Shown here in pieces: positions 29,492-45,074 of a DNA stretch of 64,000 nt. Each line of letters begins with the position of its first letter. Positions within the stretch are counted from its first letter, which is position 1. A program made the position numbers and the translations under genes. The DNA comes from Actinomycetes bacterium (lineage in GTDB: Bacteria > Actinomycetota > Acidimicrobiia > Acidimicrobiales > Microtrichaceae), in assembly GCA_029782335.1 (NCBI GenBank), contig JAKOVA010000245.1:1-64000 (forward strand). Direction: 5' to 3'. The notes beneath the pieces were generated by a model. That model was not told where the DNA came from. It was given only the letters and a program-made list of their open reading frames with translations, and ran no database searches.

Positions 29492-30913
29492 ATGACCCTC
29501 ACCACCCTCCGCGCCGATCGTCTCGGCGCACTCGACGCCGAATTTCTGCTCATCGACGATGGGGTCGGACACATGCACCTCGCGGGCGCGTGCGTGTTCG
29601 AAGGTCCCGCTCCGTCCTTCGACGAGTTGGCGGCGCTCCTCGAGGCGAAGTTCCACGAGATCCCTCGGTACCGCCAGCGCGTACGGACCGTTCCCCTCGA
29701 ACTCGGGCGACCGGTCTGGGCCGACGACCCACACTTCGATCTCTCCTACCACCTCCGCGACACCGCGTTGCCCGCGCCGGGCGACGACGCAGCATTCCGT
29801 CGCCTCATGGGACGGCTGATGTCCCAGCCGCTTGACCGCAACCGACCGCTGTGGGAGGCCTGGCGGGTCGAAGGCCTCGAAGACGACCGTTGGGCGATGG
29901 TGTTCAAAGTGCACCACTGCATGGTCGACGGCATCGCCGGGGTCGGGCTGTTGGCAGCGCTGCTCGATGTCTCCCCGGACCGCACGGTCGGCTCGCCGAG
30001 TCCGTGGGAACCGGCGCCGGAGCCCGGAGTAGCGGCGAAGGTCCTGGGCGCGTGGCAAGGAGCCGTCGAGGATGCCCGACGCCACGTCGGCAATGCCGTG
30101 TCGGCCGTGCGGCACCCCGTCCGCGCCGCGGCCGTGACCCTCGAAACCCTCCGCGGGGGTGGCCGTATCGCCGCCGAACTCGGCGCGACGGCGCCACTCA
30201 CCATCGACGGCTCGATCGGCCCGCACCGCGTCTGGGCCCACTCCTCGGTCGATCTCGACGATGTGCGCAGGATCCGCGAGGCGTTCGGCGTCACCGTGAA
30301 CGACGTCGTGCTGAGCGCCCTCACGGCGGGCTATGCGGCTCTGCTCCGCCATCACGGCGACGTGGTCGACGAGGCGGTCCTGCGGTCACTCGTGCCGGTC
30401 TCCACCCGTCGGGCCGATGGCGAAGGTGTCGCCGACAACCGGGTTTCGCTCATGTTGATCGACCTGCCCGTGGCGGTGGCAGATCCGCTCGAGCGTCTCG
30501 GCGCGGTCCGCTCGGAGATGGCGTCGCTCAAGGCCTCACACATGGTCGAGGCGGGCGAGGTCGTGACCGCGGTGGGGGAGCTCGCGCCGCCGATGATCGT
30601 CGGGCCGATCAGCCGGTGGGTCACCCGGGTGATGCATCGGCTGCCGCAGCGCTCCGTGAGTACCGTGACCACCAACGTTCCCGGCCCGCAGTTTCCCCTG
30701 TACTGCCTCGGTCGGCAGATGCTGGCGGCGCTCCCGTACGTCCCGATCACCCACGGGGTGCGTGTCGGCACGGCAGCGCTGTCCTACAACGGTCGGATCG
30801 CGTTCGGGGTGACCGGCGACGCCGGCACCGTGCCCGACGTGGCGATCCTGGTGGAGACCGCTGCCCGCGAGGTGGCGGCCCTGCGGAGGTGTGCCGACGA
30901 CGTACTAGGGTAA
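29492..30913 (+). CDS. WS/DGAT wax ester synthase/diacylglycerol acyltransferase 1
   Basis: This encodes 473 residues. The catalytic HHxxxDG motif is HHCMVDG at 141-147. Family motifs LGALDAEFLLID near the start, PLDRNRPLWEAWRVEGL, VNDVVLSALTAGYAALL and TNVPGPQFPLYCLGRQM are present. It transfers acyl groups from acyl-CoA to alcohols or diacylglycerol for storage lipid. ATG 29492 is preceded by GAGGAG; GTG 29477 is the alternative. Its stop codon lies within the operator of the next gene, 24 bp before it. Confidence 0.93.
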   Translation: MTLTTLRADRLGALDAEFLLIDDGVGHMHLAGACVFEGPAPSFDELAALLEAKFHEIPRYRQRVRTVPLELGRPVWADDPHFDLSYHLRDTALPAPGDDAAFRRLMGRLMSQPLDRNRPLWEAWRVEGLEDDRWAMVFKVHHCMVDGIAGVGLLAALLDVSPDRTVGSPSPWEPAPEPGVAAKVLGAWQGAVEDARRHVGNAVSAVRHPVRAAAVTLETLRGGGRIAAELGATAPLTIDGSIGPHRVWAHSSVDLDDVRRIREAFGVTVNDVVLSALTAGYAALLRHHGDVVDEAVLRSLVPVSTRRADGEGVADNRVSLMLIDLPVAVADPLERLGAVRSEMASLKASHMVEAGEVVTAVGELAPPMIVGPISRWVTRVMHRLPQRSVSTVTTNVPGPQFPLYCLGRQMLAALPYVPITHGVRVGTAALSYNGRIAFGVTGDAGTVPDVAILVETAAREVAALRRCADDVLG

Positions 30914-30925
30914 ACGGCGTTTACC
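30909..30925 (+). promoter_or_regulatory. Operator site 1 of the proposed TetR regulon
   Basis: GGTAAACGGCGTTTACC is a perfect 7-3-7 palindrome over the stop of the WS/DGAT gene and 12 bp before the ATG of carotenoid oxygenase 1. The core TAAAC-GGC-GTTTA matches three other sites at 37517, 38157 and 43209 in alignment (AAC-RGY-GT constant). Confidence 0.8.
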
Positions 30926-30937
30926 AAAGGGGTTCCC

Positions 30938-32677
30938 ATGCCGACGCCGGACAGCCTGACCACCGCCCAGCACCACGACTTCGACCTCGAGGTGACGAGC
31001 GGGGCGTGGCCTTCCGACATCGCCGGGGAGGTGATCTTCTCCGCACCCCGTTTCGACGACGCGTTGCCGTCGGGTCTCTTCGGGTTCGGCTGCGTGGCGC
31101 GTCTCGCGCTTCGACCGGCGACCCACGGCGCGCCGGCTGATCGGTTCGCCTGGCGGGTTCGTACGATCGAGAGCCCAGGCAAGCGCCTTCACGACCTGGT
31201 CCCGGATGTCTTCACGGCGAACTCCGTCGGCTACCAGTCGCCCTTCGGCCCCCCGAACGCCTCGAACACCGCGCCGCTGGTGTGGGGTGACCGCCTCTTC
31301 AGCACCTGGGACGCCGGTCGGCCCGTGGAACTCGACCCGGCCACGCTCGACTATCTCGCGGACGTGGGATCGATCGACAGTTGGGGCGGACCGATCTTCG
31401 GTACCGAGACGATGCTGCCGACGATTCTCTCCTCGGCACACCCGGTGATCGATCCGGATCGCAACGGCATGTGGAGCACACGGCTTCGACCGGTGCTCAG
31501 CCCGAGCTTCGGCATGGCGTTGTCGGTCATGTGGTGGGACGGCGAAGGCACCGAGGTTGCGGTGTGGCCGCTGCGCGACATCGTGTTTGGTGGATCGACC
31601 CACACCGTGAGCCAAACCCGCGACTGGCTGGTCTTGTCGGACTCGGGCAACTTCCGAGCGGACCCCGGTGAGATGTTCGGTGGGGAACGGACCGTCACCG
31701 TCGAGGACGACGCCCCGGTGTGGTTGGTCCGAAAGGACCAGCTGTTGGCGACACCACCCGGCACCCCGGTTGATGCGATCTGTCTCCGGGTCGCGCCCCC
31801 GAGTGGCCATTTCTATGCCCGCTACGACGACAGCGAGGGCATCTCGGTCATCTGGGAGGGGATGGATCTCACCGACCTGGGCCTGTCGCTCCGGCCGGAC
31901 GACCTCGATATCCATGGACGGCCGATCGCCCCGACCGCGGCCCGGCTCTACAACATGGCAATGGCGCCCTCCACGTTGATGGAGGTCCACTTCGACCCGA
32001 CGAGCGGAGCGGTGACGGAGCGCGCGGTGCGGCGCGACGAGTGGGCGTTCAACTTGCAGCTCTCCGCGATGGACTGGAGCGTTGCGGGCCAGGAGCACCC
32101 GACCTACCACCACGTCGACTTCCAGGGGTGCCGGCCGGGAGCGGTCAGCCAGCGGGCGGCCACCCTCTACGACGGTCGGATCGACCGGGCCCAGCTCGGC
32201 GAGGAGACCCCGGGGCGCCTCGTCACCTTCCGTCGCGGCAGCCTCGAGGTCGTCTCGGCGTGGGAGTACCCCGACACCGCAGAGCTGATCTCGTCGCCGA
32301 CATTCGTTCCCCGAACACGCTCCACCGACGACCGCAGCGAGGGCGGCACTCACGCGGGCGACACCGCCAATCACCCCGGCGGCCACGACGGCTATGTGGT
32401 ACAGCCCGTCCTGAGCGACAGCGGATTCCGCGTTGAGTTGTTCGACGCGGCGGCGGTGGGCGCGGGACCGATCGCGACGCTTCGGGGTACCCGTCGCGAA
32501 TGCGTGCCGCTGATCCTGCACTCCGCATGGCAGGCCGACGGTGCCGTCCGCCGCGACGCGGATCGACTGCGGTTCTCCGACGAGATCAACGAGGCACGCC
32601 TCGCCGGCCTCGATGACGCGCAACGGCGTGCGGTCCAACAAGTGGCCTCGGACCTCGACGCTCAGGCGTCGAGGTAG
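30938..32677 (+). CDS. Carotenoid oxygenase (RPE65) family protein 1, divergent
   Basis: This encodes 579 residues, longer than the usual 450-500. By motif order the four Fe-binding His are H168 (SSAHPVIDPDRNG), H222 (STHTVSQTRDWLVL), H291 (SGHFYARYDDSEG) and H528 (PLILHSAW). ATG 30938 follows AAAGGGG. No signal peptide is present. The protein is much more like carotenoid oxygenase 3 (41264-43171) than oxygenase 2: both share FxxLSDSGN/VVLDASGT-like, GHF-x-x-x-Y and LxLHSxW segments. It would cleave a C=C bond with O2; the substrate is not known. Its 3' end overlaps the convergent livF by 16 bp. Confidence 0.86.
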   Translation: MPTPDSLTTAQHHDFDLEVTSGAWPSDIAGEVIFSAPRFDDALPSGLFGFGCVARLALRPATHGAPADRFAWRVRTIESPGKRLHDLVPDVFTANSVGYQSPFGPPNASNTAPLVWGDRLFSTWDAGRPVELDPATLDYLADVGSIDSWGGPIFGTETMLPTILSSAHPVIDPDRNGMWSTRLRPVLSPSFGMALSVMWWDGEGTEVAVWPLRDIVFGGSTHTVSQTRDWLVLSDSGNFRADPGEMFGGERTVTVEDDAPVWLVRKDQLLATPPGTPVDAICLRVAPPSGHFYARYDDSEGISVIWEGMDLTDLGLSLRPDDLDIHGRPIAPTAARLYNMAMAPSTLMEVHFDPTSGAVTERAVRRDEWAFNLQLSAMDWSVAGQEHPTYHHVDFQGCRPGAVSQRAATLYDGRIDRAQLGEETPGRLVTFRRGSLEVVSAWEYPDTAELISSPTFVPRTRSTDDRSEGGTHAGDTANHPGGHDGYVVQPVLSDSGFRVELFDAAAVGAGPIATLRGTRRECVPLILHSAWQADGAVRRDADRLRFSDEINEARLAGLDDAQRRAVQQVASDLDAQASR

Positions 32678-33408
32678 CCGGCCTCGAGGAGATCCGGCTG
32701 GGCGGCGAGCGACTCCGCGGTGCCCTCGAGCACCACTCGACCCCGCCGCAACACATAGCCCCGGTCTGCGACCTCCAGGACCGTCTGCACGTGCTGTTCG
32801 ACAACGAGCACCCCGAGGCCGGTCTCGGAGGCGATGGAGCGCAGCACTCCCAACAGGTGCTCGACGATCATCGGTGCGAGCCCGGTGCTCAGCTCATCGA
32901 TCAGCAGCAGCTTCGGACCCGCGCTCAGCGCAGTCGCGAGCGCCAACATCTGCTGTTCACCGCCCGACAGGAGCCCGGCCCGCCGTTTCGCGAGTGGAGC
33001 GAGCGCCGGAAACCAGTTGGCGACGCGGGCCGGGTCCGCTGTTGCCGAGCGCGTCGAGCGACGCGCTGAGCCCGCCAGCCGAAGGTGTTCTGTGACCGTC
33101 AACTCGGCAAAGAGCCCTCGGTCGTCGGGGACATGGCCGAGCCCCCACCGGGCGGGCCGCCACCCCGATCGCCACGGATCACGCCGCCGGCCCGGCTGCT
33201 CGGTCGAGTGACCGAGCAACTCGATCGTGCCGCCGCTCCGCTGCGTCATCCCCGACACGGTGAGCAGTGTGGTGGTCTTGCCGGCCCCGTTCGATCCGAG
33301 GAGTGCGACGACTTCGCCAGCTCGGACCTCGAGCGACACGTCGTGGAGCACGGGTCTCTCGCGGTACCCGGCGCACACGGAACGCAGGGCGAGCAGGTGT
33401 CCGGTCAT
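32662..33408 (-). CDS. livF: Branched-chain-type ABC importer ATPase LivF
   Basis: This encodes 248 residues. Walker A is LGSNGAGKTT, the signature LLSGGEQQMLALATAL, Walker B KLLLIDELSTGLAP, and VLVVEQHVQTVLEVADRGYV is the LivF-type H-loop region. It is the last gene of the SBP-livHM-livG-livF operon; its start overlaps livG by 4 bp. An unusual 13-residue Arg-rich insertion (EQPGRRRDPWRSGWRPARWG) precedes the Q-loop. Confidence 0.93.
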   Translation of the reverse strand: MTGHLLALRSVCAGYRERPVLHDVSLEVRAGEVVALLGSNGAGKTTTLLTVSGMTQRSGGTIELLGHSTEQPGRRRDPWRSGWRPARWGLGHVPDDRGLFAELTVTEHLRLAGSARRSTRSATADPARVANWFPALAPLAKRRAGLLSGGEQQMLALATALSAGPKLLLIDELSTGLAPMIVEHLLGVLRSIASETGLGVLVVEQHVQTVLEVADRGYVLRRGRVVLEGTAESLAAQPDLLEAGYLDA

Positions 33409-34151
33409 CGCCTCGCCCCGAGGTAGGCGTCGATCACGGCGGGATCACGCCGAACCGCCTCGGGAGTGCCGGAGGCCACTCGGCGACCAAGGTCCAGCAC
33501 ATCAACGCGGTCACACACCGACATGATCAGCGACATGTCGTGGTCGACCACCAGGACCGCGATCCCCGCTGCAGCGATCGAGCGAAGCAGGTCGGCCATC
33601 GCTGCCGTTTCCGTCCCGTCGAGACCTGCCGCCGGCTCGTCGACGAGCACCACGTGAGGCGATGAGACGACGGCGCGACCGAGCGCCAGGCGCTGCCGCT
33701 CGGCGGTACTCAGCGCTGCGGGACGCGCGGCTCGAAGGTCGCTGATGCCGAGCAACCGGAGCGTCTCTTCGACCGCGGTGGGCCGGGAGGACTTCGGCCA
33801 GAACACGTCGGTGATCGTCGAACGCCACGAGGGCGCTGGGGCAGCGACGAGGAGATGTTCCTCTGCGGTGAGATCGTCGAAGAGCTCGACCGCTTGAAAC
33901 GTGCGGCAGAGACCGGCTCGAACACGCTTGGCGGGCGACATGGTTGTGAGATCGCGGCCGTCGACCGCCACCGTGCCGCCCGACGGTGTCACAAACCCCG
34001 ACACCGCGTCGATGAAGGTCGACTTGCCAGCACCGTTGGGTCCGATCAGTCCGACGATCGACCCTCGCTCGACCGACAGATCCACCCCGTCGAGCGCGAC
34101 CAAGCCGCCGTGGCGCACCGTCAGGCCGCGCACCTCGAACAGCGCGCTCAC
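33405..34151 (-). CDS. livG: Branched-chain-type ABC importer ATPase LivG
   Basis: This encodes 248 residues from the GTG at 34151, which overlaps the permease stop (GTGA). Walker A is GPNGAGKST, the signature LSTAERQRLALGRAV (S-T-A-E-R in place of S-G-G-x-x), and Walker B VVLVDEPAAGLD. GLCRTFQAVELFDDLTAEEH is the LivG-type Q-loop. The altered signature is seen in some actinobacterial Liv systems. Confidence 0.92.
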   Translation of the reverse strand: MSALFEVRGLTVRHGGLVALDGVDLSVERGSIVGLIGPNGAGKSTFIDAVSGFVTPSGGTVAVDGRDLTTMSPAKRVRAGLCRTFQAVELFDDLTAEEHLLVAAPAPSWRSTITDVFWPKSSRPTAVEETLRLLGISDLRAARPAALSTAERQRLALGRAVVSSPHVVLVDEPAAGLDGTETAAMADLLRSIAAAGIAVLVVDHDMSLIMSVCDRVDVLDLGRRVASGTPEAVRRDPAVIDAYLGARR

Positions 34152-36154
34152 CGCGACGACTCCTGGGGAACACGGCGAGGCTGCGATTGCGGCGAGCGCG
34201 CCGCCGGGAGCCACGCGCGAACGGCGCCGCTGATCCCGCCGGGCACGAGGATCGCCGCGACGATCAACGCGATGCCGCTGAGCGCGAGGACCGGACCTTC
34301 ACCCGTCGTCGCGCCGGAGTCCCCGCCCAACGCCGAGAGCACACCTCCCTGGGTCAGGACGCCGGCGATCAGCGCGCCGGAGATCCCCGCCACACCACCG
34401 AGATAGGTCAAGGCGACGATCACGAGTGCCCCGATCGCCATGAACGAGTTCGGCGACAAGGTCGTGACGGCGAACGCGGTGAGTACTCCGGCGAGGCCGG
34501 CGAGCAGTGACGAGACGGCGAAGGCGCCCAGCTTCGCCCGAGCGACCTCGATGCCTGCTGCTGCGGCAGCCCGCTCGTTGGAGCGCACCGCAAGCCACCG
34601 AAGCCCGGTTCGGTTCCGGCGGAGGTTCGCGACACCTGCCGCTGCGAGGCCCAACCCGACCAGGCAGACCGCCCCGTAGCGGGGCCGGAAGTTGGCGGCG
34701 CCAACCGCCCCGACACTCAGGTCCCACCCGAAGATCTCTGGGCGGGGAGCGGAGCGACCCGCCGCGCCACCCGAAACCGCGTCGCTCGCGAGGACCAGCC
34801 CCTCGATCGCGACCGCCACGGCCAGGGTGACGACGGCGAGGCTCATTCCTCGCACTCGGGTCGCCGGCCACGACACCAAGGTGCCGACGAGCGTCGCGAG
34901 CGCCACTGCCGCGACCACCGCGACGAGAAAGGGGGCGCGCTGCTCCATCAGGCGGATGGCAGTGAAGCCAGCGATACCGGCGATCGCCTGCACCGCCAGC
35001 GAGATCTGACCGACATAGCCCGTCGCAACCACCACCGACAGGGAGCCGACCGCCGCGATCGTCGAGACGATGATGCCGTGGCGACCCGATGCTCCGGCGG
35101 TCCACAGCCCCCAGATCGCCAATGCACCGATCGCGACAACCCAACCGGTGACATGACGTGGTGTCGGCGACGGCGGGAGCCGCTGTGCCAGGACGCCGCG
35201 ACGGTCGGGCAGTACGTCGCTCCGGCGAACGAGGACGCCGATGATCACCACGACGGGGACCGCCTGTTGCAGACCGGTTGTCGGCAGCCATCCAGGCAAC
35301 CAGGTCGCGTCCGGCCGCACCGCCAGGTCGAGGATCAGCGACTGCGCCATGCCGATCCCCAAGCCGGCGACCGTGGTCAGCGCGAAGGAGCGCAGGCCGC
35401 CGAGGAGTGCCGCCGCCAATGCCGGGACGACGAGCAGGGGAGTGGTGCTCGGAGACAACCCGGAGATCGGTTCGATCAGGATCACGGCCGCGCCACCGAG
35501 CACCGTTGCCGCCGCCCACGACACCACGCCGAGGCGGTTCGGGGAGATTCCCAGCAGCAACGCGCCCTTCTCGTTCGCAGCGCCGGCCCGGATCGCCAGC
35601 CCGAGGGCGCTGAATCGGAAGAACACCGTGAGCACGACCGCGACGGCGACCGCGAGCAACGCGAGCGCGAGCCGGTTGACGGTGACCACGGTCCCGAGCA
35701 GGCGAACCGGGGCCGTCGGCAGCACCGGCCGGCGTCGCACGACGCCCGCGCCCGCGACCGGGAAGCGGACCCGCACCACCTCCTGAAGGTAGAGCAGGAG
35801 CCCGAGCGACGCGACGACCCGCGCGAGCGGCGCGCCAGTGCGGAGCAGCCGAAAGATCACGAGGTAGACCACGGCCCCGAGCGCTGCGGCCAACACGAGG
35901 GCGAAGACCAGCGCGGTGGCGAGTGTGGGCCGCGGCACGAGGTGGACTCGAGCGGGCAGGCCGAGCACCGGCAGCACCAGATCACCCGTCTCGCGGAAGT
36001 CGAAGTACGCGTATGCCACATACATCCCGAGCGCCGCGTGCGCGAAGTTGACGACGTTCGAGCTGCGATAGGTGAGGACCAGTCCGACCCCGAGGGACGC
36101 GATGACCGCGCCCCCGCCGAGTCCCGCGAGCAGGGCGCCGAGCGATGAGGACAT
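34148..36154 (-). CDS. Fused LivH-LivM permease of the branched-chain-type ABC importer
   Basis: This encodes 668 residues, about the sum of LivH and LivM. Residues 1-300 are LivH-like (GVGLVLTYRSSNVVNFAHAA, AGAANEKGALLLGISPNRLG). Residues about 330-660 are LivM-like (VATGYVGQISLAVQAIAG, then ATRVRGMSLAVVTLAVAVAI, NERAAAAAGIEVARAKLGAF). The ATG at 36154 lies 15 bp after the substrate-binding protein stop. Fusion fixes the two halves in 1:1 ratio. Confidence 0.93.
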   Translation of the reverse strand: MSSSLGALLAGLGGGAVIASLGVGLVLTYRSSNVVNFAHAALGMYVAYAYFDFRETGDLVLPVLGLPARVHLVPRPTLATALVFALVLAAALGAVVYLVIFRLLRTGAPLARVVASLGLLLYLQEVVRVRFPVAGAGVVRRRPVLPTAPVRLLGTVVTVNRLALALLAVAVAVVLTVFFRFSALGLAIRAGAANEKGALLLGISPNRLGVVSWAAATVLGGAAVILIEPISGLSPSTTPLLVVPALAAALLGGLRSFALTTVAGLGIGMAQSLILDLAVRPDATWLPGWLPTTGLQQAVPVVVIIGVLVRRSDVLPDRRGVLAQRLPPSPTPRHVTGWVVAIGALAIWGLWTAGASGRHGIIVSTIAAVGSLSVVVATGYVGQISLAVQAIAGIAGFTAIRLMEQRAPFLVAVVAAVALATLVGTLVSWPATRVRGMSLAVVTLAVAVAIEGLVLASDAVSGGAAGRSAPRPEIFGWDLSVGAVGAANFRPRYGAVCLVGLGLAAAGVANLRRNRTGLRWLAVRSNERAAAAAGIEVARAKLGAFAVSSLLAGLAGVLTAFAVTTLSPNSFMAIGALVIVALTYLGGVAGISGALIAGVLTQGGVLSALGGDSGATTGEGPVLALSGIALIVAAILVPGGISGAVRAWLPAARSPQSQPRRVPQESSR

Positions 36155-36169
36155 CGACGTGGGATGGGC

Positions 36170-37465
36170 TCAGCCGCGGGCGATCGACCCGACGTCGATC
36201 CAGTCGCCGATCTGAGCGAGTTGCCCGTTATGCATTCGAGCGAGGATCTGCTGGGGGGCACACATCGCTGGAAGCGCAGGGAACTGCTTGCGATCACACG
36301 TCGACGCGTGGCCGTCGAAGCTCGGGGCGCCGGCCTGGGAACGCAACGCGGTCGACACGCCGGACGCGGTCGGGTCGGCGCCGAGACCGACGAGGACGCG
36401 GTAGAGGTTCATGAACGAGCGGAACGTCACGGTTCCGGCGCCGATGGGGTTCAACCCGTCGCCGTAGCGGGCGACCACCGCGTTGTAGAGGTCGCGGTCG
36501 GGGTCATCAACCCCCTTCGGGATCGGCCCTTCGACGTTGAAGATCGCACCCTCGGTCGCCGCGTTGCCGACCTGCTCGGTGATCGACGGCGCAGCGCACG
36601 CCCCGGTGAAATACCGCGTGGCGCGAGTGCCGAGCGCCGCGAGTCCTTCGAGGCCGGCTCGGCACCCGGTGTCGGCCGCCAACACGATCACGGCATCGTG
36701 GTCGCTGCCGACCGCGGCCGACAATGCAGCGGTGAGGTCGGTGGTGAGCACCGGATAGGGGACCATCTGCACCGTCGCCCCAGCCCGTTTCAACACGGCC
36801 TCACCGACCTTGGCGGCGTCTGCGATCGAACCGAAGTCGCCGTAGACGATCGACACCGATGTGGCGTGCGCCTCGACGGCGTGGTGCGCGAACGCGACTG
36901 CAGCGCCCCACGTTCCGCCACTCCACTGGAACGAGTTGTCGGAACGGACCGACTGCATGCTGACCGGGATGCCTCCGACATAGGGCACTCCGTTTGCTGC
37001 GAGGACGTCGACCGCGTTGCCGAAGACGTCGATACCGCCGAGGACCGCGGGCACTCGCGCTTCAACGAACTTCTGTCCGCAGTCGGTTGAGCCCTCGGCC
37101 GAGAAGCCGGTGTTGCACACCTCGACGCGGATCGGCCGCCCAGCGAGGCCACCGAGTTGCTCGTTCACGAAGCTCACCGCGGCCTGCACTGCCTGGGACA
37201 ACTCTGGGTAGCTGCCAGCGGGAGTGTTCTCCTGGTTGATCATTCCGATCACGAGCGGGTCACCGGTTGCCGGCGTTGGGGACTCGACGATGAGCTCACC
37301 GAGCGACGAGCGGCGAGCGCACGCGACGAGGTCGTCGGCACGACACAGCTCCGATGTCGCGATGGTGCTGCGTTGCGTCGCCCCACCCCCGGGGTCGGCC
37401 TCGCTGCAGGACAATCCGAGCACCATGACTGCCACAACGGCGATGCAGGTTGTGAAGCGCCTCAC
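36170..37465 (-). CDS. Periplasmic-type substrate-binding lipoprotein of the Liv-type importer
   Basis: This encodes 431 residues from the GTG at 37465. The signal peptide ends in lipobox LGLSC (Cys20). The body is Leu/Ile/Val-binding-protein-like: PLVIGMINQENTPAGSYPEL, AVSFVNEQLGGLAGRPIRVE, VSIVYGDFG, and a second lobe with AAVGSDHDAVIVLAADTGC. The regulator, not the fold, hints at the substrate; members of this fold also bind aromatics, amides and urea. It is the first gene of the operon, with operator site 2 in its leader (52 bp upstream). Confidence 0.9.
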   Translation of the reverse strand: MRRFTTCIAVVAVMVLGLSCSEADPGGGATQRSTIATSELCRADDLVACARRSSLGELIVESPTPATGDPLVIGMINQENTPAGSYPELSQAVQAAVSFVNEQLGGLAGRPIRVEVCNTGFSAEGSTDCGQKFVEARVPAVLGGIDVFGNAVDVLAANGVPYVGGIPVSMQSVRSDNSFQWSGGTWGAAVAFAHHAVEAHATSVSIVYGDFGSIADAAKVGEAVLKRAGATVQMVPYPVLTTDLTAALSAAVGSDHDAVIVLAADTGCRAGLEGLAALGTRATRYFTGACAAPSITEQVGNAATEGAIFNVEGPIPKGVDDPDRDLYNAVVARYGDGLNPIGAGTVTFRSFMNLYRVLVGLGADPTASGVSTALRSQAGAPSFDGHASTCDRKQFPALPAMCAPQQILARMHNGQLAQIGDWIDVGSIARG

Positions 37466-37516
37466 GTCGCGGTTCCCCCGTGTTTTCCGGCCGACCTCCG
37501 ACCGGAGGCAGCTCAA

Positions 37517-37532
37517 GCTAACAGTGTTTAGC
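37517..37532 (-). promoter_or_regulatory. Operator site 2 of the proposed TetR regulon
   Basis: GCTAACAGTGTTTAGC (plus strand) abuts the tetR stop and lies 52 bp before the start of the importer operon. Aligned by its AGT centre it gives CTAAC-AGT-GTTTA, matching the AAC-RGY-GT core of sites 1, 3 and 4. Confidence 0.72.
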
Positions 37533-38138
37533 TCAGCTGGGTCGGGGAGTCGCGCCGTAACCGGCGAGCAGTCGATCAACGATCTCGTCGATGAGTCGCT
37601 CCTGATCAACTTCGGCGAGGCCCAACTGCACCACGGTCGCCACACCGTGTGCCGCCGCCCAGAAGGTGAGCGTGACGAGCAGGGCATCCTCGGCATGCAA
37701 GAGACCCGCCGAGACGGCCTCCTCGATGGTGGCCGCCGCCGTTGCGAACACCCGGGTCGCGCCCGGCAACTCGGCGTCACCCGGAACGTCGAGACCGAGT
37801 GGCCCGGGCGGGAAGAGGAACATCACCCGGAACAGTTCGGGCCGCCGTCGCGCGACGTCGACGTAGGCACGGGCCTGCGCACGGACTCGCTCGAGAGGAT
37901 CGCGCTCGGCGACGCGATCGAACGCGTCGCCCAGCAGGGAGAACTCGCCTTCGGCGACGCCGCGCAGCAGGTCGCGCTTGTCCTGGACGTGCGCATAGAG
38001 GGCCGCTGCGGTGACGCCGAGGCGAGCGGCGAGGCGTCGTAGCGACAGCGCTTCGAGGCCGGCGTCGGCAATGAGATCGCGTGCAGCGGCGATGATGGTC
38101 CCTCGATCGAGGGGGGCACGAGGGGCGCTCGGGGTCAT
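37533..38138 (-). CDS. TetR-family regulator, proposed controller of the carotenoid-oxygenase/importer block
   Basis: This encodes 201 residues from ATG 38138 (TTG 38147 is possible). The HTH is in LSLRRLAARLGVTAAALYAH following TIIAARDLIADAGLEAL; the C-terminal domain with RRRPELFRVMFLFPPGPLGL and WAAAHGVATVVQLGL resembles the WHG-type TetR ligand domain. It is divergent from carotenoid oxygenase 2, and upstream of the importer operon on the same strand. Candidate operators flank it on both sides (37517, 38157). Confidence 0.9.
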   Translation of the reverse strand: MTPSAPRAPLDRGTIIAAARDLIADAGLEALSLRRLAARLGVTAAALYAHVQDKRDLLRGVAEGEFSLLGDAFDRVAERDPLERVRAQARAYVDVARRRPELFRVMFLFPPGPLGLDVPGDAELPGATRVFATAAATIEEAVSAGLLHAEDALLVTLTFWAAAHGVATVVQLGLAEVDQERLIDEIVDRLLAGYGATPRPS

Positions 38139-38156
38139 CCGGGGCAACGTACTGAC

Positions 38157-38170
38157 TGAACAGCGTTAAC
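38157..38170 (+). promoter_or_regulatory. Operator site 3 of the proposed TetR regulon
   Basis: TGAACAGCGTTAAC lies in the 62-bp divergent gap between tetR (start 38138) and carotenoid oxygenase 2 (start 38201). It matches the family core TGAAC-AGC-GTTAA, so one site could control both directions. Confidence 0.72.
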
Positions 38171-38200
38171 TTCCCGCTCGAGTCTCGCTATGGTGCACGC

Positions 38201-39613
38201 GTGAGCAGCACCGAAACTCCGCCCGCATCGGCCTGGCCGTCGAACCCGTGGCTCGAGGGTCACTACGCGCCCGTCGCCGACGAACTCGACGCGCCAAACC
38301 TCGAAGTGCAGGGCTCGTTGCCCGACGGGTTGCGCGGCGCCTTCCTGCGCAACGGACCGAACCCGCAGTTCCCGCCACTGGGCCGCTACCACCTCTTCGA
38401 CGGCGACGGGATGATCCATTCGGTCGTCTTCGACGGCAGCGGCAGCGCCGCGTATGCCAACCGCTGGATACGAAACGACGGGCTCGACGCCGAACGTGCC
38501 GCTGGCCGCGCCCTCTTCGGGGGCCTCGCTGAGTTCCGCCTGCCGCCACCCGACGTGATGGCCGTCGCCGGCCCGATGAAGAACACCGCAAATACGCACG
38601 TGGTCGCCCACGCCGGACACATCCTGGCGTTGATGGAGGGGGCCGGCCCCATCGAGGTGGCGCCCGACCTCGACACCATCGGGCCCTTCGACTTCGGCGG
38701 CCGCCTCCGCGGTGCGATGACCGCGCACCCCAAAGCCGACCCGACGACCGGCGAGTTGGTCTTCTTCGGGTACTCGCCGGTGCCACCGTTCCTGCGGGTT
38801 CACACAGCGGATCGCAACGGAGACCTCACCTGGACGACAGAGGTGGAACTCCCGGGGCCGGTGATGATGCACGACTTCGCCGTGACGGCGACCCACGTGG
38901 TGATCTTCGACCTGCCAGCGGTCTTCGATCTTCAAGCGATGTTGGCTGGCGGTACGAGCATCTACTGGGAGCCCGATCGGGGGGCCCGGGTCGGGGTGTT
39001 GCGCCGGGGCGAACCCGGCACGTCGATCCGCTGGATCGACACCGACCCGTTCTGGGTGTTCCACTTCCTCAACGCGTACGACGAGCCCGACGGTTCGATC
39101 ACCGTGACCGGGTGCCGGGCACCGAGGCTGAACACCAGTTTCGGCGACGACGCCACCATCGACGGCCTTCAGCCGATGCTGTACCGCTGGCGCATCGACG
39201 CCGCTGCCGGGTCGCTCGGTGGCCAGCAACTCGACGACGCGCCGACCGACTTCCCCCGCATCAACGACGCACACAGCGGACTGCCGCACCGCTACGGCTA
39301 TTCGGGCCACACCCGCATGTGGTCGGGCGACGAGGCGATGTTCGACGGCGTCGTGAAGCACGACCTGGCGGCGGGAACCTCGCGGTTCCACCTCTACGGC
39401 GACTCCGCGGCGTGTGGCGAGACCGTCTTCGCCCCGGATCCCAATGGCACCGGAGAAGACGCAGGTTGGCTGCTGAACTTCGTGCACGATCTGGCGAGCG
39501 ACGAGAGTTCGGTGGTGGTGCTCGACGCACCCACCCTCGAGGAAGTGGCCCGAGTGGTGCTTCCCCGTCGGGTGCCCTTCGGCTTCCACGGCAGCTTCGT
39601 GGCGGCACGATGA
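38201..39613 (+). CDS. Carotenoid oxygenase (RPE65) family protein 2, canonical
   Basis: This encodes 470 residues with a GTG start. All four iron His are clear: H176 (TAHPKAD), H224 (MMHDFAVT), H288 (WVFHFLNAYDE) and H463 (FGFHGSFV), with the family Glu in NAYDE. The N-terminus has FLRNGPNPQF and RYHLFDGDGMIHSV, typical of apocarotenoid oxygenases, lignostilbene dioxygenases and isoeugenol monooxygenases. It is cytoplasmic. It overlaps the ligase gene by 4 bp (ATGA), so cleavage product and CoA activation may be consecutive steps. Confidence 0.95.
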   Translation: MSSTETPPASAWPSNPWLEGHYAPVADELDAPNLEVQGSLPDGLRGAFLRNGPNPQFPPLGRYHLFDGDGMIHSVVFDGSGSAAYANRWIRNDGLDAERAAGRALFGGLAEFRLPPPDVMAVAGPMKNTANTHVVAHAGHILALMEGAGPIEVAPDLDTIGPFDFGGRLRGAMTAHPKADPTTGELVFFGYSPVPPFLRVHTADRNGDLTWTTEVELPGPVMMHDFAVTATHVVIFDLPAVFDLQAMLAGGTSIYWEPDRGARVGVLRRGEPGTSIRWIDTDPFWVFHFLNAYDEPDGSITVTGCRAPRLNTSFGDDATIDGLQPMLYRWRIDAAAGSLGGQQLDDAPTDFPRINDAHSGLPHRYGYSGHTRMWSGDEAMFDGVVKHDLAAGTSRFHLYGDSAACGETVFAPDPNGTGEDAGWLLNFVHDLASDESSVVVLDAPTLEEVARVVLPRRVPFGFHGSFVAAR

Positions 39614-41214
39614 GCGTGCTGTTGGCGCCGCTGGTGGCGCTCTGCGGCGACGAGGCTGCGGTGATCGACGACTCCTCGGTGCTGTCGTGGCGGACCCTCG
39701 ACGAGCGGGTTGACGCCTTGTCGGCGGCCCTCGCGACACGCGGCGTCGAAGCGGATGACCGGATCGTCGCGTTGCTCGGCAACCAGCACGAGATGGTCGA
39801 GTTGTCCCTCGCGGCCCTCGGGGGCGGGTGGGTGCTCGTGCCGCTGAACTGGCACTGGGTCGCACGCGAGGTGGCCTACGTCATCGACGACGCCACCCCA
39901 TCGGCGATCATCGTCGACCAACGCTTCGAGGCCGTGGCATCTGAAGCGCTCGCCATCGCGGAGCACCCGCCGGCCCTCCGGGTGCTGGTCGGCGCGGAGC
40001 GCGGTGACAAGGGGAGCGGTGGCGAGGGGCGCGACGAGGGGTGGGTGCACTACGAGGAACTCCTCTCGGGGGCGCCGGAGACTGGCCCCGAGCCCCTCAA
40101 GGGCGGCCCGATGTTCTACACATCCGGAACCACCGGCTTCCCCAAGGGGGTGAAGTCGACCCTGAGCGCGGTCGGTGGCCCCGCGGAGCTGAGCCTGCTG
40201 ATCGCACACTCGATGGGCCCGACGATCGGTGTACCGCCGCTTGGGTCCGCGGAGGACCCTCGGCGGTGCCAGCTCATCTGCGGACCGATGTATCACTCGG
40301 CGCAGTGGGTGTTCGCCCACTTCGCGCTGCTGTGCGGAGCGACGATCATGCTGCAGCACCGCTTCGACGCCGGGGAGGTCCTCGAGCTGATCGAGCAGCA
40401 CGGCGTCACGAACCTGCATCTGGTTCCGACCCAGATGTCACGCCTCCTGGACCTGCCTGCCCAGCGTCGAGCGCGCTTCGACGCATCGACGCTCCGAACC
40501 GTCCTCCACGGCGCTGCCCCGTGCCCGCCGGCGCTGAAGCGGGCGCTGATCGAGTGGTGGGGGCCGATCGTCTCGGAGTACTACGGCGGCACCGAAGGCG
40601 GCTTCCTCGCCCTGATCGAATCGGCGGACTGGCTGGAGCGCCCCGGAAGCGTCGGACGGCCGTTGCCGGTTGTCGAGGTTCGCATCCTCGACGACGAGGG
40701 CAACGTGGTGGAAGCCGGACACACCGGAGAGATCTGGTTCCGGAACCTCCTGGGTTCCGACTTCGAGTACCACAACGCCCCTGGCAAGACCGACGCAGCA
40801 CACCGTGACGGGTTCGGAACGCTCGGCGACGTCGGCTACCTCGACGCGGATGGATTCCTCTACCTGGCCGACCGCAAGATCGACATGGTCGTCTCCGGTG
40901 GCGTCAATATCTATCCCGCTGAGGTCGAGGGCGCGCTCCACGAGCATCCGGCGATCTCCGATGTCGCGGTGTTCGGTGTCCCCCACGCCGAGATGGGCGA
41001 GGCGGTGCACGCGGCGGTGGTGCTGCGCGACGGGATCGAGTGGTCCGACTCGCTCGAGGCCGACCTCGACGCCTGGTGCCGCGAGCGGCTCGCTGGCTAC
41101 AAGCGACCCCGGGGCTACGAAGTCCACGAGGAGCTTCCCCGCAACGAGTCCGGGAAGCTGCTCAAGCGCGGGCTGCGCGACCCGTGGTGGGCTGGGACTG
41201 ATCGCAGGATCTGA
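39610..41214 (+). CDS. AMP-forming acyl/aryl-CoA synthetase
   Basis: This encodes 534 residues. The P-loop is MFYTSGTTGFPKGVKS, the substrate region has YYGGTEGGFLALI, and the hinge and C-terminal motifs are LADRKIDMVVSGGVNIYPAE and RNESGKLLKRGLRDP with the catalytic Lys. It is of the fatty/phenylpropanoid acyl-CoA synthetase type (feruloyl- or long-chain acyl-CoA ligases). Translational coupling to carotenoid oxygenase 2 suggests it activates an acid made from the cleavage product. Substrate not determined. Confidence 0.93.
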   Translation: MSVLLAPLVALCGDEAAVIDDSSVLSWRTLDERVDALSAALATRGVEADDRIVALLGNQHEMVELSLAALGGGWVLVPLNWHWVAREVAYVIDDATPSAIIVDQRFEAVASEALAIAEHPPALRVLVGAERGDKGSGGEGRDEGWVHYEELLSGAPETGPEPLKGGPMFYTSGTTGFPKGVKSTLSAVGGPAELSLLIAHSMGPTIGVPPLGSAEDPRRCQLICGPMYHSAQWVFAHFALLCGATIMLQHRFDAGEVLELIEQHGVTNLHLVPTQMSRLLDLPAQRRARFDASTLRTVLHGAAPCPPALKRALIEWWGPIVSEYYGGTEGGFLALIESADWLERPGSVGRPLPVVEVRILDDEGNVVEAGHTGEIWFRNLLGSDFEYHNAPGKTDAAHRDGFGTLGDVGYLDADGFLYLADRKIDMVVSGGVNIYPAEVEGALHEHPAISDVAVFGVPHAEMGEAVHAAVVLRDGIEWSDSLEADLDAWCRERLAGYKRPRGYEVHEELPRNESGKLLKRGLRDPWWAGTDRRI

Positions 41215-41263
41215 GCGGCGGCGCCGACGAAGTGGGGCACCCCTCGGAGAGCGGGTCGGGGGA

Positions 41264-43171
41264 TCAGCGCAGGAGCGCCTCGTAGGGGCCGAGCACGTCA
41301 CGCTCGAGAATCGAGCGCACCTGCGGATCGAAGCGCCACGTCGCCGCTCGAGAGACGAGTTCCCGTCGCACGTCAACCGATGAGTCGGGCCCGGCCGAGC
41401 GGGTCGAGTCCAACCAGATCGAGTGCAGCGTGAGCGGGACGGCCAGCTCCGGGTGGCCGAGCTTCGCGACCGGGCCCGAGGCGAGGTGTGCTGCGTCGAA
41501 GACCCACAGCTCGGTTCCGGCGGAGCGTTCGGTGACGTGGTCGCTGTAGACAACGGCGACCACGTATCCGTCGGTCGAGCCGCTGGCGGTGCCGCGGCGG
41601 GGGACGAAGGTGGGCGTCCAGCCAAAGCGGTCACCGGGATAGAAGAACGCGTCGGCGACCGAGCCCGCATCGTGGTCGATCCGCACCAGCCCTGATGGCA
41701 CGCCTTCCCACGGCAGTTCCTCATAGGGAACCAGCCGGTAGGGGTGCCGGATGAAGCCGGTGCCCACACGCCGGACCGCGAGATCGGTGGGGAAGCCGGA
41801 GGTCGCGTGGTACACGTCGCCGAGGGTGTCCTCGGAGTGGAGCGGATTGCGGGCGACCAACCCGCCGGTGCCCCAGGTGGCGTCGCTGTAGAAAACGTGC
41901 TGATCCACGACAGCGCCCCGGCGGGCGTCGATCTCGTAGCGGCCGACGACGCCGATGTCGTAGTTCACCGGGGTGATGGCGTTGACCAGTTCCTCGCGCA
42001 CCGGCTCGCCGGTGTGGGGGTGGCGGTCGTACGGCTGGACCCATTCGGCAAAGTCGCTGGCGCTGGTGTGCGCGCTGTGCACGACCAGCCGATCTGGTGT
42101 CGAGTCGTAGTCGACCATGAAGTGGCCCGACTCGCGCGGGATGATCGCTCGTCGCGCCACGACGCCGCCGCGGGTGGTCCGAATGTCGTCGCGGCTGATG
42201 ACGTAGAGATACGACTCGGGTCGCGGCACGATCGTCTGGCCGGCTTCCCACGAGTCGGGTGGGTTGAGCAGCTTTCCGGCCTCGATCGTCCCGGAAGCGT
42301 CGAGTACCACGAGGTGGTGTCGCGTCACGCACAGTTGGTGTGCGTTCTGGGTGATCGCGAGCGGCGACCCGTCGGGCATCGTCACCGGCACCCGCTTGAT
42401 GGCACCGTGGCCGTCCCAGGCCAACACCTCGAAGTACATCATCCCCGGCAGGGGGACGATCGACAGGGACACGCCGTAGTACTCGCCGGTGTGACGGTCG
42501 TAGGGCGGATGGGCACTCGCGACGCCCATCGGCGCGAGGAACCGATTGATCGGAGGGTCGACCATCGGTCGGTAGTCGTCGAGTCGGCCCACCGGTGAGA
42601 GCGGATCCAAGGTGGCGGGGTCGATCTCCCAGGGTCGGCCGCCGTCGCAGGTGGCGATCAGCCGGTTGCCGTCGAGGGACACCAGGGCGGTGTTCGCCTG
42701 GTTCTGCAGCCCGAGGCGCCCGAGGCGGGTCATCCCTCGGGACTCGAACCGGTAGGGCGTGTCCTCGAACGCGCGGGCCATGAGATAGTCGGTCGTTCGC
42801 AACAGGCGCGAGGTGAGCCGGGGAGTCGGCCCGTCGAGGTCGAGACGCCACACCATGCCGTCGCCGCTGAAGCCCGCATCACTCGGCAACAGCGACAACG
42901 ATTGGAACAGGACGTGGCCGGCGAGGTCATCGGGCAAGCGGCCCTCGAGCACCCCGAGTTCGCTCGGCGCGAACTCGGTCGTCACCCGGCGGTTGAAGGC
43001 CGCCGGAAGTCGGGCCCAACGGTCACGACCACCGAGCGGTGTGGGGAGAGGGTGCGGGCCCGACCCGAACGGATCCGGCGGGCTTGCCGGCGCGCACCCC
43101 AGCGCAGCACCACCGATCACGATGAGCGCACCACCACTCGCCGCGCCCCTCAGAAAGTCTCGACGATCCAC
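41264..43171 (-). CDS. Carotenoid oxygenase family protein 3, Tat-exported lipoprotein
   Basis: This encodes 635 residues from GTG 43171, with GGGGG upstream. The N-terminus DRRDFLRGAASGG followed by a hydrophobic core and ALGC (Cys26) is a twin-arginine signal with a lipobox. The oxygenase body has His at ASAHPPYDRHTG, NAHQLCVTRHHLVVLDASG, GHFMVDYDSTPD and PLTLHSIW, so the four iron ligands appear kept. It resembles oxygenase 1. Export of a carotenoid oxygenase is unusual and suggests cleavage of a hydrophobic substrate outside the membrane before import. Operator site 4 lies 38 bp upstream. Confidence 0.88.
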   Translation of the reverse strand: MDRRDFLRGAASGGALIVIGGAALGCAPASPPDPFGSGPHPLPTPLGGRDRWARLPAAFNRRVTTEFAPSELGVLEGRLPDDLAGHVLFQSLSLLPSDAGFSGDGMVWRLDLDGPTPRLTSRLLRTTDYLMARAFEDTPYRFESRGMTRLGRLGLQNQANTALVSLDGNRLIATCDGGRPWEIDPATLDPLSPVGRLDDYRPMVDPPINRFLAPMGVASAHPPYDRHTGEYYGVSLSIVPLPGMMYFEVLAWDGHGAIKRVPVTMPDGSPLAITQNAHQLCVTRHHLVVLDASGTIEAGKLLNPPDSWEAGQTIVPRPESYLYVISRDDIRTTRGGVVARRAIIPRESGHFMVDYDSTPDRLVVHSAHTSASDFAEWVQPYDRHPHTGEPVREELVNAITPVNYDIGVVGRYEIDARRGAVVDQHVFYSDATWGTGGLVARNPLHSEDTLGDVYHATSGFPTDLAVRRVGTGFIRHPYRLVPYEELPWEGVPSGLVRIDHDAGSVADAFFYPGDRFGWTPTFVPRRGTASGSTDGYVVAVVYSDHVTERSAGTELWVFDAAHLASGPVAKLGHPELAVPLTLHSIWLDSTRSAGPDSSVDVRRELVSRAATWRFDPQVRSILERDVLGPYEALLR

Positions 43172-43208
43172 GCGTCCCCCAGGTTCCGTCGGTACCGCCC
43201 GCCCGGAC

Positions 43209-43223
43209 TGAACAGTGTATACC
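43209..43223 (-). promoter_or_regulatory. Operator site 4 of the proposed TetR regulon
   Basis: TGAACAGTGTATACC (plus strand) gives TGAAC-AGT-GTATA, again with AAC-RGY-GT. It lies between carotenoid oxygenase 3 (minus) and the DUF1971 gene (plus), so it could control both, and perhaps the downstream WS/DGAT 2. Confidence 0.7.
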
Positions 43224-43311
43224 TCGGGTCGAGCCGTTACGAAGGGGCAGTCGATCCGGTACGGTCGATCACGCGAGCCCGACTCCCGACCCCCAGAGAG
43301 GAGCATCGCCC

Positions 43312-43647
43312 ATGAATGAAGTCATGCCCGACGGCCTTGAGTACGTCCGCACCACCGACGTGTTCGATCAGGAACAGCACCCGGCCGGTCTCTTGCGCGC
43401 CCACCGGGTCGCCGAGGGCGTCTGGGGTCGCCTGCTCGTCCACACCGGCGGGGTCCGCTTCGTTTTCGAGGACGACACTGACCATCCCATCGACGTGACG
43501 GCCGGCGGCACTCAGGTGATCCCACCGGGTCGCGAGCACCACGTCGAGTTCGTCGGGCCGGCAACCTTCGCCATCGAGTTCCACCGTGAGCCCCGACAGG
43601 CGACGCCGACCCCCGGCGACGAGAGCACCGGCCTCGCTGAGACCTGA
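43312..43647 (+). CDS. YeaR/TehB-like cupin (DUF1971) domain protein
   Basis: This encodes 111 residues with AGAGAGGAG upstream. The order VRTTDVFDQEQHPAGLLRAH, a barrel with GVWGRLLVHTGGVRFVFED, TQVIPPGREHHVEFVG and ATFAIEFHRE matches the small cupin family of YeaR. The conserved His pair in EHHVEF is a candidate metal site. It is followed 5 bp later by WS/DGAT 2, so they form an operon. Confidence 0.78.
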   Translation: MNEVMPDGLEYVRTTDVFDQEQHPAGLLRAHRVAEGVWGRLLVHTGGVRFVFEDDTDHPIDVTAGGTQVIPPGREHHVEFVGPATFAIEFHREPRQATPTPGDESTGLAET

Positions 43648-43652
43648 TCCGC

Positions 43653-45074
43653 GTGGAGCGCCTCACCGCAGCCGACTCGTGGTACCTCCAGGTCGAGTCA
43701 CCCACCGTGCCCATGCACGTGGCGGGCGTGATGATCCTCGAGCCGAAGACCGCTGGCAGGCGTCTCACCCCCACACGCCTGCGCGACCACATCGCCCGCG
43801 GGTTCGCCACCATCCCGTCGCTGCGCCGGCGGCTCGTTGAGGTTCCGTTCGGGATCGACCATCCCGTGTGGGTCGAGGACCCCGATTTCGACCTCGACCA
43901 CCATCTCTCACGTCACATCCTCGGCCGGCCGGGCGAGCCCGCGGATCTCGACACGTTCGTCGGCCGCTTCCTCTCTCCGCTGCTCGACCGCTCGAAACCC
44001 CTGTGGCAGATGGCGCTGGTGGAGGGCCTCGAGGGCAAGCGGATCGCGATCGTCGTCAAGTTGCACCATTGCCTCGTCGACGGGGCGAGCGGCCTCGCGA
44101 TCCTCGGCGAGCTGATCGATCTGACCGCGGAGGAGACGGCGAGCACATCCCGACCCTCGGACACGCCCGAGCGAGCCGAGCGAGCCGAGCGAGTCCCGGG
44201 TCGCACCGAACTCGTCACCGGAGCGCTGTGGAATCGAGCGATCACCCCGATGCGTCCGCTTCGAGCGGCGGCACACGTTGCGTCGTCGATCGCGAACCTC
44301 GCAACCACCGCAACTGCCCGCCGACGCTCTGGGGCGACGCCTTCCGCACGTCCCCTCGATGCTCCCCGAACACCCCTCAACGGGGTCCTGACAACTCGTC
44401 GGGCCACCTCGTTCACCCAGCTTCCCCTCGACGACTTCAAGCGCGTCCGAACGGCCTTCGGGGCGACGGTCAACGACGTCGTGCTCGCCGTGTGCAGCGG
44501 GGCGCTCCGCGAGTATCTCGACGCGCGCGGTGCGCTTCCGGACCGACCCCTCGTGTGCTCGGTGCCGGTCTCCACCCACGGCCACGACGACGCGGACCGC
44601 TCGACGAATCAGGTGTCGAGCCTGTTCGTCCACCTCCCCGTGCACCTCGCGGACCCTCTCGATCGACTCGCCGCGGTCCACGAAACGGCAGAGGGCGCAA
44701 AGCAGTACCACGCAGCGCTCGGGGGCAGCATTCTGGGTGATGCGGTCGAGATGATTCCGACGACCCTGCTGCGTCTCGGAAGTCGCGCCTATGGCCGCAG
44801 CCACCTCCCGTCGCTGCTGCCGCCGATCCAGAACCTGATCGTCTCCAATGTGGTGGGCCCACCGAGCCCCCTCTACATCGCGGGTGCGGAGGTCGTCGGC
44901 CTGTTCCCGGTCGGCCTCCTCACCGAGGGAACCGGCTTGAACATCACGGTGTTCTCGAGCAACGGCGTGTTGAACGTCGGGCTGCTGGCGTGCCCCGATC
45001 TCCTCGATGACCTCGGCGAGTTGGTCTCGGGGATTCGGCGCAGCCTCGAGGAGTTGCTCGCGCTCGCCGCTTGA
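43653..45074 (+). CDS. WS/DGAT wax ester synthase/diacylglycerol acyltransferase 2
   Basis: This encodes 473 residues with a GTG start. The catalytic motif is HHCLVDG at 138-144. ERLTAADSWYLQVESPTVPM, LLDRSKPLWQMALVEGLEGK, VNDVVLAVCSGALREYL and VVGPPSPLYIAGAEVVGLFP are family motifs. It is paralogous to the gene at 29492. Having two WS/DGAT genes in one neighbourhood suggests linkage of the oxygenase pathway to storage lipid or ester formation. Confidence 0.93.
   Translation: MERLTAADSWYLQVESPTVPMHVAGVMILEPKTAGRRLTPTRLRDHIARGFATIPSLRRRLVEVPFGIDHPVWVEDPDFDLDHHLSRHILGRPGEPADLDTFVGRFLSPLLDRSKPLWQMALVEGLEGKRIAIVVKLHHCLVDGASGLAILGELIDLTAEETASTSRPSDTPERAERAERVPGRTELVTGALWNRAITPMRPLRAAAHVASSIANLATTATARRRSGATPSARPLDAPRTPLNGVLTTRRATSFTQLPLDDFKRVRTAFGATVNDVVLAVCSGALREYLDARGALPDRPLVCSVPVSTHGHDDADRSTNQVSSLFVHLPVHLADPLDRLAAVHETAEGAKQYHAALGGSILGDAVEMIPTTLLRLGSRAYGRSHLPSLLPPIQNLIVSNVVGPPSPLYIAGAEVVGLFPVGLLTEGTGLNITVFSSNGVLNVGLLACPDLLDDLGELVSGIRRSLEELLALAA

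Follow-up and report, generated by a model that had tools for sequence, protein, structure and literature searches.

The window analysed here is a stretch of 64,000 nucleotides (contig C126) from assembly G000 (GenBank GCA_029782335.1; 3.19 Mb, 75% complete) of a bacterium of the Acidimicrobiia. An earlier note on this DNA had described a block of genes holding three RPE65-family oxygenases, one canonical and two divergent, an AMP-forming ligase, a complete Liv-type importer, two WS/DGAT genes and one tetR gene. The block is present between positions 29492 and 45074, each of the genes named is supported by Pfam, and comparative genomics shows a conserved linkage and a common predicted operator. 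In what follows G stands for a genome and L for a locus, and the RPE65-family proteins of the window are called CCOA, CCOB and CCOC. They score 68, 141 and 446 bits, respectively, against the Pfam family and are its sole members detected in G000. The divergent pair is mutually similar, as had been proposed (28% identity, hhalign probability 100), and CCOC is more remote from both (hhalign probability 98.3 with CCOA and 99.8 with CCOB). Coupling of the ligase to CCOC is borne out by its ATG, which overlaps the CCOC stop by 4 bases (ATGA, 39610-39613), and the importer has all its parts: a substrate-binding protein (SBP), a fused LivH/LivM permease (LivHM) and the LivG and LivF ATPases. The features of the block are as follows; the Tat signal of CCOB, the DUF1971 gene and the operator sites are additions to the earlier note.

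29492..30913, + strand: WS1, WS/DGAT acyltransferase (Pfam PF03007/PF06974), upstream of the CCOA operator, not behind it
30911..30923: predicted TetR operator TAAACGGCGTTTA, 0 mismatches, before CCOA
30938..32677, + strand: CCOA, divergent RPE65-family oxygenase, 579 aa (Pfam; four invariant His in the alignment; AF2 model pLDDT 86)
32662..33408, - strand: LivF-type ATPase (Pfam ABC_tran; syntenic orthologues 47-62%)
33405..34151, - strand: LivG-type ATPase (Pfam ABC_tran and BCA_ABC_TP_C; start picked from the overlap with the LivHM stop)
34148..36154, - strand: fused LivH-LivM permease, 668 aa (two Pfam BPD_transp_2 stretches; orthologues 47-67%)
36170..37465, - strand: SBP, Liv-type substrate-binding lipoprotein (Pfam Peripla_BP_6; lipobox-like start VRRFTTCIAVVAVMVLGLSC)
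37518..37530: predicted TetR operator CTAACAGTGTTTA, 2 mismatches, before the SBP-Liv operon
37533..38138, - strand: TetR-family regulator, predicted repressor of the regulon (Pfam TetR_N and TetR_C_33)
38157..38169: predicted TetR operator TGAACAGCGTTAA, 1 mismatch, between tetR and CCOC
38201..39613, + strand: CCOC, canonical RPE65-family oxygenase, 470 aa (Pfam; four His, occluding Thr, Glu/Asp/Glu second sphere)
39610..41214, + strand: ACS, AMP-forming acyl-CoA ligase (Pfam AMP-binding and C-terminal domain)
41264..43171, - strand: CCOB, divergent RPE65-family oxygenase with a twin-arginine (Tat) lipoprotein signal (Pfam; orthologue 73% in same-genus G001)
43209..43221: predicted TetR operator TGAACAGTGTATA, 1 mismatch, in the divergent promoter gap between CCOB and DUF1971
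43312..43647, + strand: DUF1971 small protein (Pfam)
43653..45074, + strand: WS2, WS/DGAT acyltransferase (Pfam), starting 5 bases behind DUF1971

Conserved linkage and a common predicted operator

To study the synteny of the block, 99 relatives were searched with each oxygenase, named genomes were scanned with a CCOA profile, and the window proteins served to map the resulting loci. CCOC, TetR, CCOA, LivF, LivG, LivHM and SBP are kept together in genus g9 (L035, L036), and in two loci of the Microthrixaceae (L138, L139) CCOA, CCOC, LivFGHM, SBP, TetR and the ligase are all linked. Most of this set is also linked in L166, L169, L174, L182 and L211, with a second divergent oxygenase in L169, L182 and L211; L034 retains TetR-CCOC-ligase and L042 retains CCOC-LivFGHM-SBP. 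Gene order and orientation differ between relatives, and the ligase orthologues (L034, L138, L139, L169) are 53-59% identical to that of the window. Synteny across Acidimicrobiia, a check set beforehand, thus holds for CCOA, CCOC, the Liv importer and TetR and, in several genomes, for the ligase. Chance clustering of the block is rejected because of this recurrence in many Acidimicrobiia and of the common operator described below, and we regard the block as a conserved module that forms part of a wider predicted regulon.

A further group of loci (L113, L115, L116, L133, L135, L138, L139, L141, L145 and others), in which CCOA usually stands with a second canonical oxygenase type, links CCOA to some or all of the genes for a Rieske oxygenase, an Amidohydro_1 protein, two short-chain dehydrogenases/reductases (SDRs), a cytochrome P450, a ThuA-like protein, an ACMSD-like Amidohydro_2 protein and DUF1971. 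The nearest PDB relative of the Rieske oxygenase is carnitine monooxygenase. Across 61 genomes, the Rieske gene occurs in 13 of the 18 with CCOA versus 1 of the 43 without (Fisher p 1.7e-8, uncorrected for relatedness). The oxygenase tree places the window CCOA among oxygenases from this Rieske-type context and the window CCOC among those from Liv-type loci; the two arrangements thus exchange parts. That many relatives have a Rieske/amidohydrolase/P450/SDR/ThuA operon under the common operator suggests breakdown of a ring or an end group of the same compound.

Homologues of CCOA with ~45% identity also occur in cultured Actinomycetota (among L162-L212: Actinomadura, Planobispora, Nonomuraea and others), which would be handy sources for biochemistry; neither Liv genes nor a CCOC or TetR homologue were found near them in these loci. 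CCOA-bearing contigs are also found under unlikely organism names, namely Bifidobacterium breve (L178, L187), Akkermansiaceae (L150) and Deltaproteobacteria (L156). L178 has the length and the gene positions of contig C74 of same-family G025, which suggests a mislabelled record or a contaminated bin.

Comparison of the promoter gaps of the window revealed a palindrome, TRAACRSYGTTYA, in four of them. Among random window stretches of the same length, a site with 0 or 1 mismatch was never reached (4000 draws each) and one with 2 mismatches was reached in <1.5%. In relatives, perfect copies lie before CCOA, CCOC, SBP, tetR and a CCOB-like gene, those at the SBP-side position being found in L166, L174, L182, L256, L257 and L260. 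Genome-wide, the exact palindrome occurs at 47 sites in 18 genomes versus 2 for a reversed control pattern, and by our own count ~31 of the 47 adjoin module genes. As evidence for the predicted operator, we let the physically unlinked genes and operons weigh most. Unlinked SBP-LivHM operons occur in G105 and G106 (L256, L257), and unlinked CCOB-like genes in G015, G016 and G037 (L127/L261, L128); G009 (L243) has an unlinked operon of Rieske and amidohydrolase genes, and G016 (L247) one of amidohydrolase, P450, SDR and ThuA genes.

All 18 module genomes encode a TetR orthologue, which was found in none of six other genomes tested; one of these six, G005, has a CCOC-Liv cluster without the operator. 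The palindrome is thus shared by the promoters of the regulator and its putative targets and conserved in relatives. From it we predict a TetR regulon composed of the importer, the oxygenases, the ligase and, in many relatives, the Rieske oxygenase/amidohydrolase/P450/SDR operon. TetR is predicted to bind this operator and probably controls the module. Exact sites without an evident link (L242, L244, L248, L258, L259) lie before genes for an ABC permease, an SGNH acyltransferase, a pyruvate:ferredoxin oxidoreductase-like protein and a protein of 559 aa, all of them possible further members of the regulon. A search for a theme common to the other operator-site genes (the SGNH acyltransferase, the ABC permease and others) gave nothing consistent. 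None of eleven one-mismatch matches on other G000 contigs lies before a regulon-type gene; one, on C54, falls within a gene that belongs to an unrelated Liv-like operon.

Oxygenase families and the iron site

The earlier note had called for a tree of the oxygenases with NOV1, LSD and ACO. The tree obtained (64 rows) includes CCD1, VP14, NOV1 and LSD; ACO, BCO and RPE65 sequences were left out, and the program gave a long-branch warning. A long, fully supported branch splits CCOC, together with CCD1, VP14, NOV1 and LSD, from CCOA, CCOB and a third divergent, CCOB-like group, CCOD (L127, L128, L129, L130, L131, L169, L182, L211). By this tree, CCOA, CCOB and CCOD form a deep clade outside every characterised relative tested here, and the NOV1+LSD and CCD1+VP14 pairs both fall outside the CCOC group. 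The N-terminus of CCOB is a twin-arginine lipoprotein signal (VDRRDFLRG...GGAALGCA), and no signal peptide was seen in CCOA. CCOD proteins, also without a signal peptide, begin with MATLTxNLFxGxGE...VVEGHWP and often have a perfect operator just upstream of their genes.

The four iron-binding His and Asn120 are present in all 64 aligned rows, including CCOA, CCOB and CCOC, and the occluding Thr of the oxygen site in all rows, VP14 and a single relative of CCOC excepted. Three second-sphere carboxylates are usual for the superfamily, Glu or Asp being permitted (PMC12051055). CCOC has all three, with Glu at the first (Glu135) and third positions and Asp353, as in CCD1, at the second. In CCOA, CCOB and CCOD, the first Glu is replaced by Asp and, in the rows inspected, the third by Ser, Thr or Pro; the second position, where alignment is difficult, is Gln in most CCOA, Glu in other CCOA and Gly in CCOB, and is lost elsewhere. 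The AF2 model of CCOA (pLDDT 86) has the beta-propeller fold, its Foldseek matches including ACO, LsdA, LSD4, NOV1 and CAO1 (for ACO, LsdA and NOV1, E about 1e-17 to 1e-20 and TM 0.55-0.70). The same fold is supported by sequence for CCOC, and the CCOB model (pLDDT 63) was too weak for a fold search. O2-dependent alkene cleavage is the predicted activity of CCOC and, with less assurance, of CCOA and CCOB.

CCOC thus resembles the members of the CCD superfamily (CCD1, VP14, ACO, NdCCD, MtCCO/Rv0654) in its four His, occluding Thr and Glu/Asp/Glu second sphere, and carries the CCD1-type DFPR(I/V)N motif. CCOA, CCOB and CCOD differ from them by their separate deep clade and altered second sphere, and CCOB also by its Tat export signal. 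That a bacterium without carotenoid genes can have an enzyme of this kind is known from MtCCO (PMC5133782).

A second CCOC-type context (L040-L050, L052) combines luciferase-like monooxygenases, a ligase, a DUF7064/7065 protein and, several kb off, WS/DGAT; five CCOC genes in it (L040, L041, L045, L046, L047) have a one-mismatch palindrome. Both WS/DGAT genes of the window had been taken as part of the pathway. They were rejected as core members, as no orthologue was found in the Liv-type loci of relatives; membership in the module is, on this comparison, not supported for WS1 and uncertain for WS2. They are kept as possible members because the block holds two of the four WS/DGAT genes detected in G000 and distant copies (~30% identical, roughly 4-7 kb from CCOC) occur in ten other loci. 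The DUF1971 family (cluster c64) adjoins CCOA or its operon in L115, L133, L138, L139, L141 and L144. An MpaB/Lcp-type protein (rubber oxygenase family) is encoded 3 kb upstream of the block (25750-26649, + strand), and no homologue of it was found among the relatives' loci mapped with it.

A predicted uptake-and-cleavage regulon and its alternatives

Our preferred explanation, which we consider fairly probable, is a regulon under TetR control for the uptake and cleavage of a hydrophobic alkene from outside the cell, with the block as its core. Uptake, alkene cleavage and acid activation, as originally proposed, fit the data and are the simplest reading, to which the shared operator adds evidence for a regulon; the steps of repression, transport, cleavage and activation are inferred. 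TetR would repress the four operator-bearing promoters through the palindrome until an inducer appears. CCOB, the Tat-exported lipoprotein paralogue, may make a first cut outside the cell, and SBP with LivHM-G-F would import the substrate or a pre-cut fragment. In the cytoplasm, CCOC (a CCD1/VP14-like 4-His iron oxygenase) and CCOA (of the divergent 4-His clade) would split C=C bonds, giving aldehydes or ketones; the aldehydes would be oxidised by enzymes encoded outside the cluster, and the ligase would then form an acyl-CoA for beta-oxidation.

Several observations weigh against this proposal. CCOA and CCOB are without part of the second-sphere carboxylates, and therefore their cleavage activity is not assured. 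The cluster has no aldehyde dehydrogenase gene, and a PDB search by sequence, meant to reveal the ligand of SBP, found no relative of this protein. The SBP-side site of the window, CTAACAGTGTTTA, has 2 mismatches and belonged to the hint behind the derivation of the motif; the CCOB operator was not seen at the CCOB orthologue in G001 (L132), and 16 of the 47 exact sites adjoin genes without a clear link. No Rieske or amidohydrolase genes were found in the 75% complete G000, so that the core alone is seen in this species or in this incomplete assembly. A phytoene synthase family gene, finally, is present in 12 of the 18 CCOA genomes versus 8 of the 43 others (p 5e-4).

This last association would be expected if the oxygenases acted in the metabolism of the cell's own carotenoids or retinal, for pigment turnover or a rhodopsin chromophore, and the transporter were incidental. 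We hold this to be improbable. No phytoene synthase (PF00494) or rhodopsin (PF01036) match was found in G000 at its present completeness, which led us to reject retinal synthesis for rhodopsin and makes own carotenoids an unlikely substrate. Phytoene synthase was also not found in the 92-98% complete CCOA genomes G002, G016, G017, G028 and G037, rhodopsin occurs in just 6 of the 61 genomes, and the importer carries the operator even when unlinked (L256, L257). The same unlinked SBP-LivHM operons, with the sites before SBP in L166, L174 and L182 and a linkage repeated in many genomes with differing gene orders, argue against an ordinary branched-chain amino-acid importer beside a separate detoxification or lipid-damage response of oxygenases and TetR; although Liv-type importers are common and the SBP ligand cannot be read from sequence, this reading seems to us very improbable. 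Of more weight, but still unlikely, is the view that CCOC alone cleaves, CCOA and CCOB being paralogues with altered catalysis or an accessory role in binding or isomerisation. Their second sphere, with Asp for the first Glu, Ser/Thr for the third and Gln (most CCOA) or Gly (CCOB) at the second position, favours it. Against it stand the tolerance of the second sphere for either Glu or Asp (PMC12051055) and the iron and oxygen sites, whose four His and Thr do not vary in any CCOA, CCOB or CCOB-like row.

As for the substrate, stilbenes, phenylpropenoids and apocarotenoids had been suggested, and the first two are now weaker candidates. If CCOC were an LSD/NOV1-type stilbene dioxygenase, the substrate would be a lignin-type 4-hydroxystilbene or a phenylpropenoid and the ligase would activate an aromatic acid. 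In favour of this, lignin aromatics are taken up by Liv-type importers in other bacteria, the PDB relatives of the ligase include feruloyl-CoA synthetases, though ranked behind FadD5 and FadD8, and relatives have the ACMSD-like amidohydrolase and the Rieske oxygenase. The window oxygenases share fold and iron ligands with the lignostilbene dioxygenases LSD4, NOV1 and CAO1, but the Tyr101 and Lys134 that hold the 4-hydroxyl of stilbenes in LSD4 (PMC8191317) are missing: these positions are Phe/Met in CCOC, gap/Trp in CCOA and gap/Cys in CCOB, and Lys134 is missing from every family member aligned. CCOC scores CCD1 (247 bits) and VP14 (221) above NOV1 (184), plant CCD1/VP14 being its closest solved structures, and in the tree both NOV1+LSD and CCD1+VP14 lie apart from the CCOC group. 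We therefore judge a stilbene dioxygenase improbable, and a stilbene as the substrate scarcely to be expected. An external apocarotenoid-like polyene is our first, tentative guess, and much of the probability lies with alkenes not named here.

The uptake-and-cleavage regulon proposed here has partial counterparts among known systems. Liv/HAAT importers, with CouPSTU-type aromatic-acid uptake as the system for comparison, likewise comprise an SBP, two permease halves and two ATPases with a ligase alongside; unlike them, the window has LivH and LivM fused, and both gene linkage and the operator connect its importer with predicted alkene-cleaving oxygenases. FadR/KstR-like regulons have one regulator, a palindromic operator and several scattered operons including a CoA ligase. 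The regulon predicted for the window resembles them in logic, but its operator and gene set differ. As the earlier note had held, the system seems undescribed: no cluster or regulon of this content, and no Acidimicrobiia carotenoid oxygenase, was found in the literature searched, most subscription journals being outside it. The fullest version of our proposal, which we put forward as possible but doubtful, is an undescribed Acidimicrobiia catabolic regulon for an aquatic or soil polyene, with a new 4-His clade of CCOA, CCOB and CCOD that has a rebuilt second sphere and an exported lipoprotein that pre-cuts the substrate before Liv uptake.

These results provide a sequence-predicted pathway of uptake, C=C cleavage and CoA activation, with oxidative follow-up in relatives, in mostly uncultured aquatic Actinomycetota. 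The defined operator offers a direct route to further members of the regulon, and a deep 4-His clade without residues shared by CCD1, VP14, NOV1 and LSD makes a natural test of the role of the second sphere. If the substrate is an apocarotenoid or a pigment fragment, these would be genes by which bacteria use algal pigments; to our knowledge, few genes for this carbon flow are known.

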